Below, piece by piece: positions 39,906 through 44,022 of a stretch of DNA of 64,000 nt. The DNA comes from Thermoplasmatota archaeon (GTDB taxonomy: Archaea; Thermoplasmatota; E2; UBA202; JdFR-43). Numbering within the stretch: position 1 is the stretch's first letter; every line of letters begins with the position of its first letter. A program made the translations under genes and the position numbers. The notes below the pieces were generated by a model. The model was not told the origin of the DNA. It ran no database searches and was given only the letters and a program-made list of their open reading frames with translations. The stretch covers positions 1-64,000 of the forward strand of contig JAPDJT010000010.1 of assembly GCA_029258955.1 (NCBI GenBank), given 5' to 3'.

Positions 39906-41084
39906 TTATTCAATTCCCTTTTCTTTATGTTTTTCTGCTATTTTTCTTGCTAATGCATTTAATGCATCAAAATCTTTTTCTTTGGGGTAACCTCTTGCTA
40001 TAACCGGCTCAATTAATTCTGCTTTTAACTTAAACATACTTTTTGCCTGCTCTATTACTTTTCCTCCCCATCCATATGAAACAATCATTGAAACAAATTT
40101 TGTTTTTGGATTTAATGCATTAGCCAAATAAAATGCATACAATGCTAATGGATGCATTCCAGTTAAGACTGTAGGAGTAGCTAAAACAAGAGTTGAGGCA
40201 TCTACTAAAGCCATGGCTGACTCACCAATATCTGTTACAGTTAAATTGAAAAGCTTATAAGGAAGCCCATTTTCTTCTAAAGCTTTAATAAAATGCCTTA
40301 CCATAACCTCAATGCTTCCATGCATTGAAACGTATGCAACTATTACTTCTTTCTTCACTTTATCAGAAACCCAATTCTCATATGCTTTGAATATGTCTTC
40401 TGGTTTCCTATAGATTGGACCATGACTTGGAGCAATCATTTTAATTTCCATTTGCTCCAACCTTTCCAAATATTTTTTGATTTTATTGCGGAATGGCATC
40501 ATTATCTCTGCATAATAACGTTTTGCCGATTCATATATGCGAGGATTTTCATCTGCATATATTCTGCTTGTTGCTAAATGACTCCCAAATAAATCACATG
40601 TAAACAAAATTTTATCTTCTCTTAAATAGGAAAGAACAGTTTCTGGCCAATGAACCCATGGAGCGGAGATGAATTGTAAACTTCTTTTTCCTAAGGATAT
40701 ATTTTGACCATCTTCAACAGCAATTATTTTTTCTTCTGGAATTAGCAAATGTTCCTTTAAAAGCTCTTTGCCAAGCTTACTTGCAATTACTTTTGCTTCC
40801 TTATATTTTTCCAAAATATCTGGAATGGCTCCAGAATGGTCCTGCTCCGTATGGTGGGAAACAATATAATCTATTCTTTGTACATTCATTTCATCCAAAC
40901 TTTCCAATAATTCATCCCTCTTGGAAGGATCAACAGTATCTATAAGTGCTATCTTTTCATCTTTTATAAGATAAGCATTATAGCTTGTCCCATCTGGAAG
41001 AGGAATTAATTCATCAAAAAGCCTTCTATCCCAATGCATTGCTCCCATAAAATAAATTCCGTCTGCAATTTCCTTAACAATCAT
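39906..41084 (-). CDS. fprA: Flavodiiron protein (FprA-type oxygen reductase)
   Basis: 392 residues. The N-terminal metallo-beta-lactamase domain has the diiron ligands in SHHTEQDHSG (about 80-89), PWVHWPET (about 148), TCDLFGSH (about 165-172) and SHGP (about 226). The C-terminal flavodoxin domain starts near residue 250 (VIVAYVSMHGSIEVM). The enzyme reduces O2 to water (or NO to N2O) with electrons from rubredoxin or F420H2. The ribosome-binding site is GGAGGTGATG. It is preceded by an operator-like palindrome and a small HTH gene, and is the last member of the oxidative-stress run. Confidence 0.94.
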   Translation of the reverse strand: MIVKEIADGIYFMGAMHWDRRLFDELIPLPDGTSYNAYLIKDEKIALIDTVDPSKRDELLESLDEMNVQRIDYIVSHHTEQDHSGAIPDILEKYKEAKVIASKLGKELLKEHLLIPEEKIIAVEDGQNISLGKRSLQFISAPWVHWPETVLSYLREDKILFTCDLFGSHLATSRIYADENPRIYESAKRYYAEIMMPFRNKIKKYLERLEQMEIKMIAPSHGPIYRKPEDIFKAYENWVSDKVKKEVIVAYVSMHGSIEVMVRHFIKALEENGLPYKLFNLTVTDIGESAMALVDASTLVLATPTVLTGMHPLALYAFYLANALNPKTKFVSMIVSYGWGGKVIEQAKSMFKLKAELIEPVIARGYPKEKDFDALNALARKIAEKHKEKGIE

Positions 41085-41151: not shown

Positions 41152-41170
41152 AATATTACGGCGTAATAAC
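41152..41170 (-). promoter_or_regulatory. Palindromic operator at the fprA promoter
   Basis: AATATTAC-GGC-GTAATAAC, six of eight arm bases paired. It overlaps a TATA-like atatttaaaag on the minus strand, so a bound protein would block TBP/TFB. It lies directly downstream of the HTH gene stop codon. Confidence 0.55.
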
Positions 41171-41178
41171 AAATAAAA

Positions 41179-41358
41179 TTAGGGAAGAGAATAGTAACAT
41201 CTCTTTGGCACAATTAGCTTTCCTTCTTCCTTCAACTTCTTTATTATTTTTGAAACTTCCTTTTTATCTAAGCCAGTCATTTCTGCAACATCTCCGGGGC
41301 GTAAAGGTTTTCCAGCTTTTTTGAATGCTTCCAATACCATCTTTTCTTTTTCTTCCAT
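41179..41358 (-). CDS. Small winged-helix DNA-binding protein, 59 residues
   Basis: A short frame from ATG 41358 with a perfect GGTGAT ribosome-binding site. The sequence has the helix-turn-helix pattern of MarR/ArsR-type winged helices: AFKKAGKPLRPGDVAEMTGLDKKEVSKIIKKLKEEGKLIV, with a wing ending CYYSLP. It has no sensor domain beyond one Cys. It lies between rubrerythrin and fprA, nine bases from an operator-like palindrome, so it is a candidate local regulator. It probably acts as a dimer. Confidence 0.7.
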   Translation of the reverse strand: MEEKEKMVLEAFKKAGKPLRPGDVAEMTGLDKKEVSKIIKKLKEEGKLIVPKRCYYSLP

Positions 41359-41366
41359 TTTATCAC

Positions 41367-41867
41367 CTAAAATCTCCTAAATTTGTCTTTTGATGCTCCA
41401 CAAATTGGGCAATCTATTGGCTCCCCAATGTGCGTGTATCCGCATACAGGACAAATATAAATCTCATCAATGTCTATATCTTTTCCTTTTTCTGCTTCTT
41501 CTTTAGCCCTTTTATACAAATCTGCATGTATTTTTTCTGCTTCTAAGGCATATTTAATGCTTAGCTGTGCATTGTTTTCATTTTGAAGTTTTGCTATTGC
41601 ATCATATGCTGGATACATCTCCTCAACTTCAAATGTTTCTCCTTCAATAGCTTTATTTATATTTTCAATAATGTTTCCCACCATGCCAAGGTTTCTTGCA
41701 TGATTTCTTGCATGAACAAATTCTGCATATGCTATTGCCTTGAAAAGCTTAGCCAAGTTTTTATATCTCTTTTCCTCTGCTAACTCAGCAAAAATTAAGT
41801 ATTTCATATGAGCCGTTGACTCTCCAGCGAAAGCTTCCTGTAAAGCTTTCTCAGTCATTTTCCTCAT
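41367..41867 (-). CDS. rbr: Rubrerythrin
   Basis: 166 residues from ATG 41867, preceded by AAAGGAGGA; an in-frame ATG 21 bases upstream overlaps the desulfoferrodoxin gene. The diiron domain ligands are in AFAGESTAHMKYLIFAE (about 13-29), AEFVHARNH and ALEAEKIHADLY; the C-terminal rubredoxin-like site is CPVCGY and CPICGA. Rubrerythrin reduces hydrogen peroxide in anaerobes. The gene lies between desulfoferrodoxin and a small HTH gene in the same operon. Confidence 0.95.
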   Translation of the reverse strand: MRKMTEKALQEAFAGESTAHMKYLIFAELAEEKRYKNLAKLFKAIAYAEFVHARNHARNLGMVGNIIENINKAIEGETFEVEEMYPAYDAIAKLQNENNAQLSIKYALEAEKIHADLYKRAKEEAEKGKDIDIDEIYICPVCGYTHIGEPIDCPICGASKDKFRRF

Positions 41868-41869
41868 TT

Positions 41870-42250
41870 TTATTCCTCCTTTGCCCAAAGTCCATGAATT
41901 GTGCAGTATTCTCTTGCCATTTTTACTTTTTCAACATTAAACTCTGCTAGTGGTTTGTCCCCTGGCTTTAAATATTTCCTAAGAACTTTGTCATCTGGAG
42001 TAATTATTTCAATCATTTCTATATAATGTTCTTCTTCCATTGGATGATCAACGCTACCAACTTTTACAATAACTTTTCCTTCCTTCTTTTCTATTACTGG
42101 CAAATGCTTTTCATATCCCTGCTCTTCTTTCTTTACTTCTAGCAATTTCATTGGTTGTCCGCAACAATAAAGCTGACCTTTCCCTCCATGCAAAACTTCA
42201 ATAATATTTCCACATATCTCGCATTTATAAACTTCATGTCTTTCTGCCAT
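41870..42250 (-). CDS. dfx: Desulfoferrodoxin (superoxide reductase, two-centre type)
   Basis: 126 residues. The N-terminal rubredoxin-like center I uses CEIC (residues 10-13) and CC (about 29-30). The catalytic center II uses His and Cys ligands in [15 protein letters not shown] and EYCTIHGLW. The enzyme reduces superoxide to peroxide without making oxygen, and the peroxide passes to rubrerythrin and peroxiredoxin encoded beside it. It directly abuts the ferritin-like gene and overlaps a longer potential rubrerythrin start. Confidence 0.95.
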
Positions 42251-42538
42251 TTAATTACCTCCCAAAATTTCATTAACTTCTTCTTTCCCTTTTTCCAATT
42301 CTTTAATTTGCTCTTCATCAAATTTTAGCAATAAAGCTAAAAATTCGCCAACATGTGTTTTTTCTTCCTTGGCAACATCTAACAAAATTTCCCTTATTCT
42401 CTCATTTTTTGTTAGATTTGCCATTTGCTCATACAAATTTATTGCATCTAATTCTGCTATCATTGCAAGCCTAAGTATTTCCTTATCTAAATCCTCCTCC
42501 TTTACCTTTTCCAAATTTATTGGTATTTTAGCCAACAT
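42251..42538 (-). CDS. Small ferritin-like protein of the encapsulated-ferritin type
   Basis: 95 residues, two long helices. The metal ligands appear in AELDAINLYEQMA (Glu near 28 and 35) and EEKTHVGEF (Glu, His near 61-64). This matches the small ferritin-like family that includes encapsulated ferritins, which form decamers and oxidise iron inside encapsulin shells. No encapsulin gene or C-terminal targeting peptide is seen here; the C-terminus (EVNEILGGN) is short. The gene has a GAGGTGAT ribosome-binding site and belongs to the peroxide/superoxide operon. Ferroxidase activity is inferred. Confidence 0.78.
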   Translation of the reverse strand: MLAKIPINLEKVKEEDLDKEILRLAMIAELDAINLYEQMANLTKNERIREILLDVAKEEKTHVGEFLALLLKFDEEQIKELEKGKEEVNEILGGN

Positions 42539-42547
42539 TTTATCACC

Positions 42548-42683
42548 TCATATTTTTCCTACTAATTCTAAAGAAACTTTTAATGTTTTTTTCGGTTCCC
42601 AGCTTGCTGGGCACCTTGCCAGGATGCTCTTCATGAAATGCCTCTGCCTCTATATCTGGAATTTTCTCCCCAACTTTTATCAT
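42548..42683 (-). pseudogene. Internally deleted peroxiredoxin remnant
   Basis: Between the intact peroxiredoxin and the ferritin-like gene are two peroxiredoxin fragments in different frames. The first, from ATG 42683 (overlapping the peroxiredoxin stop as ATGA), reads [19 protein letters not shown], a typical N-terminus. After a frame change it continues RCPASWEPKKTLKVSLELVG, ending at 42548, the typical AhpC-type C-terminus with its resolving Cys. The middle, about 170 residues with the peroxidatic Cys, is missing. A second, two-Cys peroxiredoxin gene was therefore once present in this operon. Confidence 0.85.
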
Positions 42684-43345
42684 TGTTCCGCCTCTTTGTG
42701 GCAGAACCACCAGTCGAAGCATTCCATTTCTCCAGCCTTTGCTTTTTCAAGCCTTTCCTTAGCTTCTTTTTCGCTCATTGCAGGAGGTATAATTACATTG
42801 CTTCCAACAAGCTCATTATTTGGCCAGTTTGCTGGAATAGCAACGCCTTGCTTATCTGCCATTTGCAGTCCTTTTACCATTCTAAGAATTTCATCCATAT
42901 TTCTTCCAAGCTCTTGTGGATAGTAAAGTATTGCTCTTATTATTCCCTTATCATCCACAATGAAGACAGCTCTAACTGTATTCGTTCCTTTGTTTGGATG
43001 AATTAAGCCAAGAATGTTTGCTACTCTTCCAGTATCATCTGCAATTATTGGGAATTTTATTTCAATGCCTATCTTTTCTTTTATCCATTCAACCCATTTT
43101 ATATGGCTGAATACTTGGTCTATACTCAAGCCAATGAGTTCTGTATTCAATGCTTTAAATTCATTATATCTCTTTTGGAATGCAACAAATTCTGTTGTAC
43201 ATACTGGCGTAAAATCAGCTGGATGGCTGAATAAAATAAACCATTTGCCTTTGTAATCATCTGGCAATTTTATTTTTCCATGCGTTGTTAATACTTCTAT
43301 CTCTGGAAATTTTTCCCCTAACAATGGAATTTTTCCTTCCACCAT
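42680..43345 (-). CDS. Peroxiredoxin (archaeal Prx6-like)
   Basis: 221 residues from ATG 43345, which has the GGTGAT ribosome-binding site. The peroxidatic Cys lies in [13 protein letters not shown] (about residue 49), and the C-terminal CFDWWFC pair resembles the resolving Cys region of archaeal thioredoxin peroxidases such as that of Aeropyrum. It reduces hydrogen and organic peroxides. It is the first gene of a seven-gene minus-strand run ending at fprA. Its promoter contains three TNCGAAT motifs spaced exactly 21 bp apart. Confidence 0.94.
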
Positions 43346-43369
43346 TTTTATCACCAATTTATAATTTAG

Positions 43370-43418
43370 TTCGAATATTTAAATTTTTCTTTCGAATTTA
43401 ATAAAATTTTTTACGAAT
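43370..43418 (-). promoter_or_regulatory. Three phased TNCGAAT sites in the peroxiredoxin promoter
   Basis: TTCGAAT at 43370-43376 and 43391-43397, and TACGAAT at 43412-43418. The CG dinucleotides are 21 bp apart each time, so all three face the same side of the helix, as for cooperative Lrp-type binding. The divergent gene at 43591 encodes an Lrp/AsnC protein. Confidence 0.65.
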
Positions 43419-43436
43419 TTTGTTAATGACAGAAAC

Positions 43437-43522
43437 AGATTAAATGAAAAACTAGTTATCAATGGTTGTTATTGCAGGAAGAGAATTATCATGGCAACAT
43501 TTCATTCACTCTAACAATCTTA
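43437..43522 (+). repeat. Dispersed inverted-repeat element between peroxiredoxin and lrp
   Basis: attaaatgaaaaactagtta, tcaatggttgttattgcagg, tatcatggcaacatttcatt: a family copy. It separates two sets of phased operator sites, as if inserted between them. Confidence 0.6.
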
Positions 43523-43556
43523 TTAAAAAATCTTACATAACAAAAAAGAATATATA

Positions 43557-43585
43557 GTACGATTTTATTTATTTTTGGTGCGAAT
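43557..43585 (+). promoter_or_regulatory. Two phased sites at the lrp promoter
   Basis: TACGATT (CG at 43560) and TGCGAAT (CG at 43581), 21 bp apart, just upstream of ATG 43591. They resemble the three sites at the peroxiredoxin promoter and suggest autoregulation. Confidence 0.5.
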
Positions 43586-43590
43586 TTCGG

Positions 43591-44022
43591 ATGATAGATA
43601 AAATAGATGAAAGGATACTGGAAATATTGCAAAAGAATGCTAGGACGCCCTATACCCAGATTGCAAAAGAAGTTGGGTTAAGCGAGGGAGCAATAAGGAA
43701 AAGAATAGAAGCATTGGAGAAAAAAGGAGTAATAAAAAAATATGTTGCAATAATCGATCCTAAAAAAATTGGATATAACAGTATAACTTTGCTTGGAATA
43801 GATACAGAGCCAACTAAATTGCTGGAAATAGCGAATGAAATTTCAAAGTTAAAGGAAGCTAAAAATGTTTATTTGTCTACTGGGGACCACATGATTATGG
43901 CGGAGATATGGGCAAAAGATGGAAAAGAACTCTCCAACATTTTAGCAAATAAAATTGCAAAAATAGAAGGAGTTAAAAGAATCTGCCCAGCTATAATATT
44001 GGAAAAATTAAAGGAGGGATAA
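43591..44022 (+). CDS. Lrp/AsnC-family transcriptional regulator
   Basis: 143 residues, the normal size. An N-terminal helix-turn-helix (about 4-55: [35 protein letters not shown]) is followed by a RAM ligand-binding domain (about 65-140) with the usual [15 protein letters not shown] pattern. The gene is divergent from the peroxiredoxin operon and both promoters carry TNCGAAT motifs at 21-bp spacing, so it probably controls that operon and itself. The following 64-residue gene starts one base after the stop. Confidence 0.9.

Follow-up and report, generated by a model that had tools for sequence, protein, structure and literature searches.

The 245-bp intergenic region between a peroxiredoxin gene (prx, start 43345, minus strand) and a divergent gene encoding an Lrp/AsnC-family regulator (lrp, start 43591, plus strand) is probably a divergent control region, at which a Ptr2-like activator switches on a defence operon and represses its own gene. 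The region belongs to the window, by which we mean the whole stretch of 64,000 nucleotides analysed here, from a 1.7-Mb draft genome. The promoter is an unusually well conserved example of a known archaeal Lrp switch, that of Ptr2 and LrpA, and not a new kind of switch. In several archaeal phyla, the comparison ties the whole Ptr2/LrpA clade to genes for oxygen defence; it also provides an operator that can be tested, TNCGANNNTCGNA repeated at 21-22 bp, and points to a single conserved cysteine that may act as the sensor, and it suggests that a single protein could be both activator and autorepressor purely by the placement of phased sites relative to the TATA box.

Six CG steps are present in the intergenic region, at 43372, 43393, 43414, 43560, 43581 and 43588. 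The initial annotation had described five TNCGAAT-type sites here; this sequence is found at four of the five, the fourth site being TACGATT. It had also described a 21-bp spacing, and on recount the first three steps, and likewise the fourth and the fifth, are exactly 21 bp apart. They thus form a prx-side group (sites 1 to 3) and an lrp-side group (sites 4 and 5), listed in Table 1. The last CG, 7 bp past 43581, also belongs to the right-hand group and completes the palindrome TGCGAATTTCGGA at site 5.

Table 1. Genes, predicted promoter elements, sites and repeat in the window, with the CG positions of the window and of orthologous loci counted from the lrp start.
Feature	Position	Strand	Basis or remark
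Rubrerythrin with rubredoxin-like domain	41367..41867	-	Pfam Rubrerythrin 8e-20, RUBY_RBDX
Desulfoferrodoxin (superoxide reductase)	41870..42250	-	Pfam Desulfoferrodox 3e-20
Rbr2, rubrerythrin/EncFtn-like small protein, second gene	42251..42538	-	Pfam Rubrerythrin 3e-8, EncFtn-like 2e-7
Peroxiredoxin prx, 1-Cys/AhpC-TSA family, first gene of O2-defence cluster	42680..43345	-	Pfam AhpC-TSA 2e-33, 1-cysPrx_C
Site 1 GTTCGAATATTTAAA, C at 43372	43369..43383	+	CG arm just downstream of prx TATA, other arm overlaps TATA
Predicted prx TATA box TTTAAATA	43376..43383	-	sequence; position kept in 12 orthologues
BRE-like GAAAAA of prx	43384-43389	-	predicted from sequence
Site 2 TTTCGAATTTAATAA, C at 43393	43390..43404	+	abuts predicted BRE on prx upstream side
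Site 3 TTACGAATTTTGTTA, C at 43414	43411..43425	+	21 bp further upstream of prx
Dispersed, partly palindromic repeat	43434..43512	+	8 further copies in own genome at E<=1e-3
Predicted lrp TATA box ATATATAG	43550..43557	+	sequence; aligned in 8 orthologues
Site 4 GTACGATTTTATTTA, C at 43560	43557..43571	+	borders downstream edge of lrp TATA
Site 5 GTGCGAATTTCGGAT, C at 43581 and 43588	43578..43592	+	most complete palindrome; spans expected lrp start region and start codon
Lrp/AsnC-family regulator, probably Ptr2/LrpA clade, single Cys132	43591..44022	+	Pfam, 1i1g match, tree
CG positions, window	-219/-198/-177 and -31/-10		relative to lrp start
CG positions, L041	-176/-155/-134 and -35/-14		relative to lrp start
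CG positions, L042	-128/-107/-86 and -34/-13		relative to lrp start
CG positions, L043	-154/-133/-112 and -41/-20		relative to lrp start
CG positions, L044	-155/-133/-112 and -41/-20		relative to lrp start
CG positions, L045	-128/-106/-85 and -36/-15		relative to lrp start
CG positions, L046	-130/-108/-87 and -36/-15		relative to lrp start

Each putative site corresponds to one arm of a degenerate palindrome of 13 bp, TNCGANNNTCGNA, whose centre lies 4 bp to the right of the C. When 35 sites from seven orthologous promoters are aligned, the T at -2 and the CG are present in all of them and are followed by A (33/35) and then by an AT-rich centre; in the right part T is found at +6 in 28/35, A at +10 in 25/35 and A at +11 in 31/35, and a CG at +7/+8 in a minority. 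Complete palindromes also occur in L045/L046 (TGCGAGGTTCGTA), in L043/L044 (TACGAAATTCGAA) and at site 2 of L018/L047 (GGACGAAAATCGTAT; GACGAAAATCGTA lacks the leading T). The CG-to-CG distance of 7 bp is enriched both in the family (7 against 1.6 expected) and in distant archaea (15 against 5.0), and the consensus of Methanocaldococcus jannaschii Ptr2, which is said to be GGACGATTTTCGTCC, has the same 7-bp CG spacing as TNCGANNNTCGNA. Two helical turns had been taken as Lrp geometry at the outset, and a review of these regulators gives two- or three-turn spacing for Lrp sites (PMC2995911). Lrp operators are imperfect palindromes of 13-17 bp at such distances (PMC2995911), and TNCGANNNTCGNA is a 13-bp palindrome recurring at 21 bp.

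The placement of the sites relative to the TATA and BRE elements, which are themselves predictions, is shared among orthologues. The prx-side order of site 3, site 2, BRE/TATA and site 1 recurs in the alignment of 12 orthologues and also, at a spacing of 22 bp, in distant Thermoplasmata (L070, L074, L075 and L076 among them), and site 2 abuts the predicted prx BRE in the window and in the orthologues. Sites 4 and 5 are found between the lrp TATA and the start codon in the window and in seven orthologues, which is the LrpA-type arrangement as far as position goes. In Ptr2-type activation, a dimer site located immediately upstream of the BRE works via TBP recruitment; in LrpA autorepression, a site bordering the downstream side of the protein's own TATA box blocks RNA polymerase, and proteins of the LrpA/Ptr2 clade are autoregulatory (PMC2995911). 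Activation of prx together with autorepression of lrp is favoured because sites 2-3 and 4-5 match these two positions.

The switch that we propose would work as follows. Dimers of the regulator would bind the five TNCGANNNTCGNA-type sites and, as the sites of each group are two turns (21 bp) apart, they would do so cooperatively and on one face of the helix within that group. From sites 2 and 3, on the immediate upstream side of the prx BRE/TATA, Lrp would most likely help to recruit TBP as Ptr2 does and turn the peroxiredoxin operon on, and from sites 4 and 5 it would most likely block RNA polymerase, in the manner of LrpA, and repress itself. At site 1, which has the prx TATA box as its second arm, Lrp would probably compete with TBP and act as a brake when it is abundant or free of signal. 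The sequences themselves show the sites, how they are phased and conserved, and where they lie relative to the predicted TATA boxes; we infer that this Lrp binds them, that it activates prx and represses lrp, that site 1 is a brake, and that oxidation is the signal, possibly sensed by Cys132.

It is rather unlikely, in our judgement, that Lrp represses both genes, with dimers on sites 1-3 covering the prx TATA/BRE and dimers on sites 4-5 covering the lrp start, until oxidation or another signal releases them and the defence operon is switched on. Lrp-family repressors usually sit on the promoter, and site 1 is the best-conserved prx site, found in 12 of 12 aligned orthologues including those that lack site 2 or site 3; its overlap with the prx TATA fits repression as well, so that the sign of regulation at prx is uncertain. 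Sites 2-3, however, are exactly at the position of the Ptr2 activator site (PMC2995911), and two other promoters argue for activation. The first belongs to Methanocaldococcus, where the loci L056 and L051 include a 4Fe-4S ferredoxin gene in divergent orientation, with genes for rubrerythrin and a flavodiiron protein in the neighbourhood. Known targets of Ptr2 are fdxA, rb2 and rbr (PMC2995911), and because the ferredoxin/rubrerythrin neighbourhood matches them we infer that L056 encodes a Ptr2 orthologue. The rubrerythrin promoter of L056/L051 carries TACGAATTTCGAA, then a TATA box TTATATAT and then a CG that lies 21 bp past the palindrome's second CG; its predicted layout is that of prx in a different phylum, CG after TATA included, at a gene (rbr) listed as a Ptr2 target. 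The second promoter was found by a gene-blind scan of the sister genome G011, where a palindrome and a 21-bp pair precede the gene for the Rbr2 orthologue, which in G011 is not linked to prx; the sites are only upstream of the TATA box. The Methanocaldococcus layout and this one case of upstream-only sites favour activation of prx over double repression.

Outside the prx/lrp region, the G011 Rbr2 promoter is the only positive one among the other family defence promoters (Rbr2, rubrerythrin, fpr), and the motif is absent from the apparently stand-alone Rbr2 promoters L228, L229, L232 and L235. A methanogen rb2 promoter was also considered and discarded, since the rubredoxin gene L164 sits downstream of a peroxiredoxin gene and has no motif of its own. 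At L164 and L165, which come from the same methanogen genomes as L056 and L057, the rubredoxin gene follows immediately on a peroxiredoxin gene whose product ends in DWWFC, as in prx; prx thus accompanies the regulon in methanogens too.

The divergent gene had been read as an Lrp gene from its sequence, and this assignment is borne out: its product has an N-terminal HTH_AsnC-type domain (Pfam, 3e-17) and a C-terminal AsnC_trans_reg (RAM) domain (1.5e-13), and sequence identity points to the LrpA/Ptr2 clade. The closest solved protein is Pyrococcus furiosus LrpA (1I1G, E 9e-53), with 60% identity over the whole length; identity to the Methanocaldococcus ptr2-like protein of L056 is 61%, and the recognition-helix segment SExAIRKR is nearly the same in the three proteins. 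A maximum-likelihood tree puts the window clade (support 100/100) amid the Ptr2-like and LrpA groups, the deepest forks being open, and its fork with other archaeal defence-linked Lrps is supported at 95/84. Relatives of the window Lrp adjoin oxygen-defence genes in Thermoplasmatota, Archaeoglobi, Baldrarchaeota, Methanocaldococcus and some DPANN, the neighbours being rubrerythrin, desulfoferrodoxin, flavodiiron protein, rubredoxin or peroxiredoxin genes. That a different regulator binds the sites and the neighbouring Lrp is a mere passenger we regard as improbable: divergent neighbours are not always autoregulatory, but the motif accompanies the Lrp clade across several phyla while the partner genes change, it is also present at the Lrp's own TATA and start, and it has the length, palindromy and spacing expected for sites of Lrp dimers (PMC2995911).

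Compared with known systems, the window regulator shares with Ptr2 of M. jannaschii its probable clade, the kind of putative targets (rubrerythrin, rubredoxin, ferredoxin, defence genes), the CG-N5-CG palindromes seen at the Methanocaldococcus ptr2-like locus, sites directly upstream of BRE/TATA and a divergent gene pair. It differs in that its divergent partner is a peroxiredoxin and not a ferredoxin gene, and in that there are three prx-side sites, one of which overlaps the TATA; most sites have one strong arm only, and activation is predicted. With the P. furiosus autorepressor LrpA it shares, besides the identity given above, the same single cysteine and sites at the downstream edge of its own TATA, whereas the Thermococcales lrpA loci have neither a divergent defence operon or other defence-gene neighbours nor a TNCGANNNTCGNA-type motif. 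The multi-site regions of Sulfolobus Ss-LrpB are similar in having several dimer sites at whole helical turns, cooperative binding and dual regulation, the last two being proposals for the window; Ss-LrpB however belongs to another clade with another motif, and in the window each of the two divergent promoters has an independent site group of its own.

Within the effector domain, GDHMIM is invariant in the clade, and 57 of the 58 proteins (31 of the 32 non-redundant ones) have a cysteine near position 132. Cys132 is the sole cysteine of the window Lrp and of LrpA, and we consider it a candidate redox sensor. To our knowledge no effector has been described for Ptr2 or LrpA. As both are predicted not to bind amino acids (PMC2995911), thiol sensing may be a reasonable idea; the segment around Cys132 is strongly conserved overall, so the cysteine could also be structural. 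A thiol-based archaeal regulator of another family, TrmB, active in oxidative stress has been described (PMC9426492). The family paralogues L024 and L027-L031 form a second Lrp clade. They have Asn where the first clade has Cys132, and GGHMIM or GGHSIM instead of GDHMIM; they also carry a pair of cysteines at a distance of ten residues, near positions 81 and 91, which may be a sensor of another kind. A much broader reading, which we offer tentatively and consider doubtful, is that the Ptr2/LrpA clade is a widespread archaeal oxygen/peroxide regulator that would sense via Cys132 and not via amino acids, the TATA box being sandwiched by sites 21-22 bp apart from which TBP would be both recruited and blocked.

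The regularity of the spacing was evaluated against 20,000 dinucleotide-preserving shuffles of the intergenic region. Three CG pairs lie at exactly 21 bp, against 0.11 expected, and none of the 20,000 shuffles gave three such pairs; taking the best pair count over all distances between 8 and 60 bp gives P = 0.003. Loss of phase in orthologous promoters, which the initial annotation had named as evidence against its proposal, was not found: the within-group spacing of 21 bp is kept across the family, with 22 bp in a few orthologues, while the rest of the intergenic region varies in length and sequence. In 14 pooled promoters of the family, whose relatives are Thermoplasmata metagenome assemblies, there are 21 CG pairs at 21 bp against 1.45 expected and 9 at 28 bp against 1.5, counts that measure consistency and are not independent evidence because orthologous promoters share ancestry. 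In 19 more distant archaeal promoters the preferred CG distances are 7 and 22 bp, the latter with 15 pairs against 4.4 expected. Genera g4 and g5 (L018-L023) keep only part of the site set; L019 and L020, for example, have lost site 2 and keep sites 1 and 3 at 42 bp, and at L048 neither prx nor the sites adjoin lrp.

In the genome of the window, the pattern CGAW-N17/18-CGAW occurs about 50 times, both strands counted, and four of these occurrences are in the prx/lrp promoter; the remaining non-coding matches examined are in tRNA genes or are isolated pairs. Genome-wide scans give this promoter as the sole cluster of at least three phased matches in most family genomes that hold it. It is hardly credible that the spacing is a chance or compositional effect of an AT-rich promoter, or was inherited without selection: it is true that there are only six CG steps and that the orthologues are related by descent, but the shuffle tests in the family and in distant archaea, the genome-wide scans and the constancy of the spacing within changing intergenic regions all speak against it. 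A larger regulon in the same genome was sought with strict pair and palindrome patterns and no further convincing promoter emerged, the other matches being coding, tRNA-associated or isolated. A second phased triple, at 47737-47785 of C14, was set aside because it falls within a 225-aa frame, and an RNA explanation of the region was dropped, as the Rfam matches in the window are tRNAs only.

The gap between the two groups drifts in orthologues from 49 to 146 bp (49, 51, 52, 71, 99 and 146), which are no whole turns, and a helical phase between the groups was therefore rejected; the two groups look like independent, separate modules. The repeat element noticed between them is indeed a dispersed repeat, with a unit of about 70 nt around TTGCATGGAAGAGAATTACCATGGCAACATTTTTTTCATT and about nine copies in the genome (copies in the window, L002-L007, L009 and L163), and it is MITE- or REP-like. 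Sixteen family relatives contain no copy at E<=1e-3, and both site groups are kept in repeat-free relatives, where the initial annotation had proposed to look for the phased sites. The repeat was for this reason discarded as a component of the switch; it was inserted recently into the linker and seems to have no bearing on how the switch works.

Two further observations concern the other end of the defence cluster. A different palindrome, TATTACGGCGTAATA, lies at 41154-41168, in the promoter of the flavodiiron-type gene fpr (39906-41084), with TATTACNNNGTAATA versions in the fpr promoters of three relatives (L260, L264 and L267), and it is probably the operator of another regulator. Between the rubrerythrin gene and fpr, at 41179-41358 on the minus strand, is encoded a 59-aa winged-helix protein that ends in KRCYYSLP and has weak MarR_2/IclR/HTH_24 matches; it is a possible local regulator of fpr, and a similar small ORF adjoins prx in L065.
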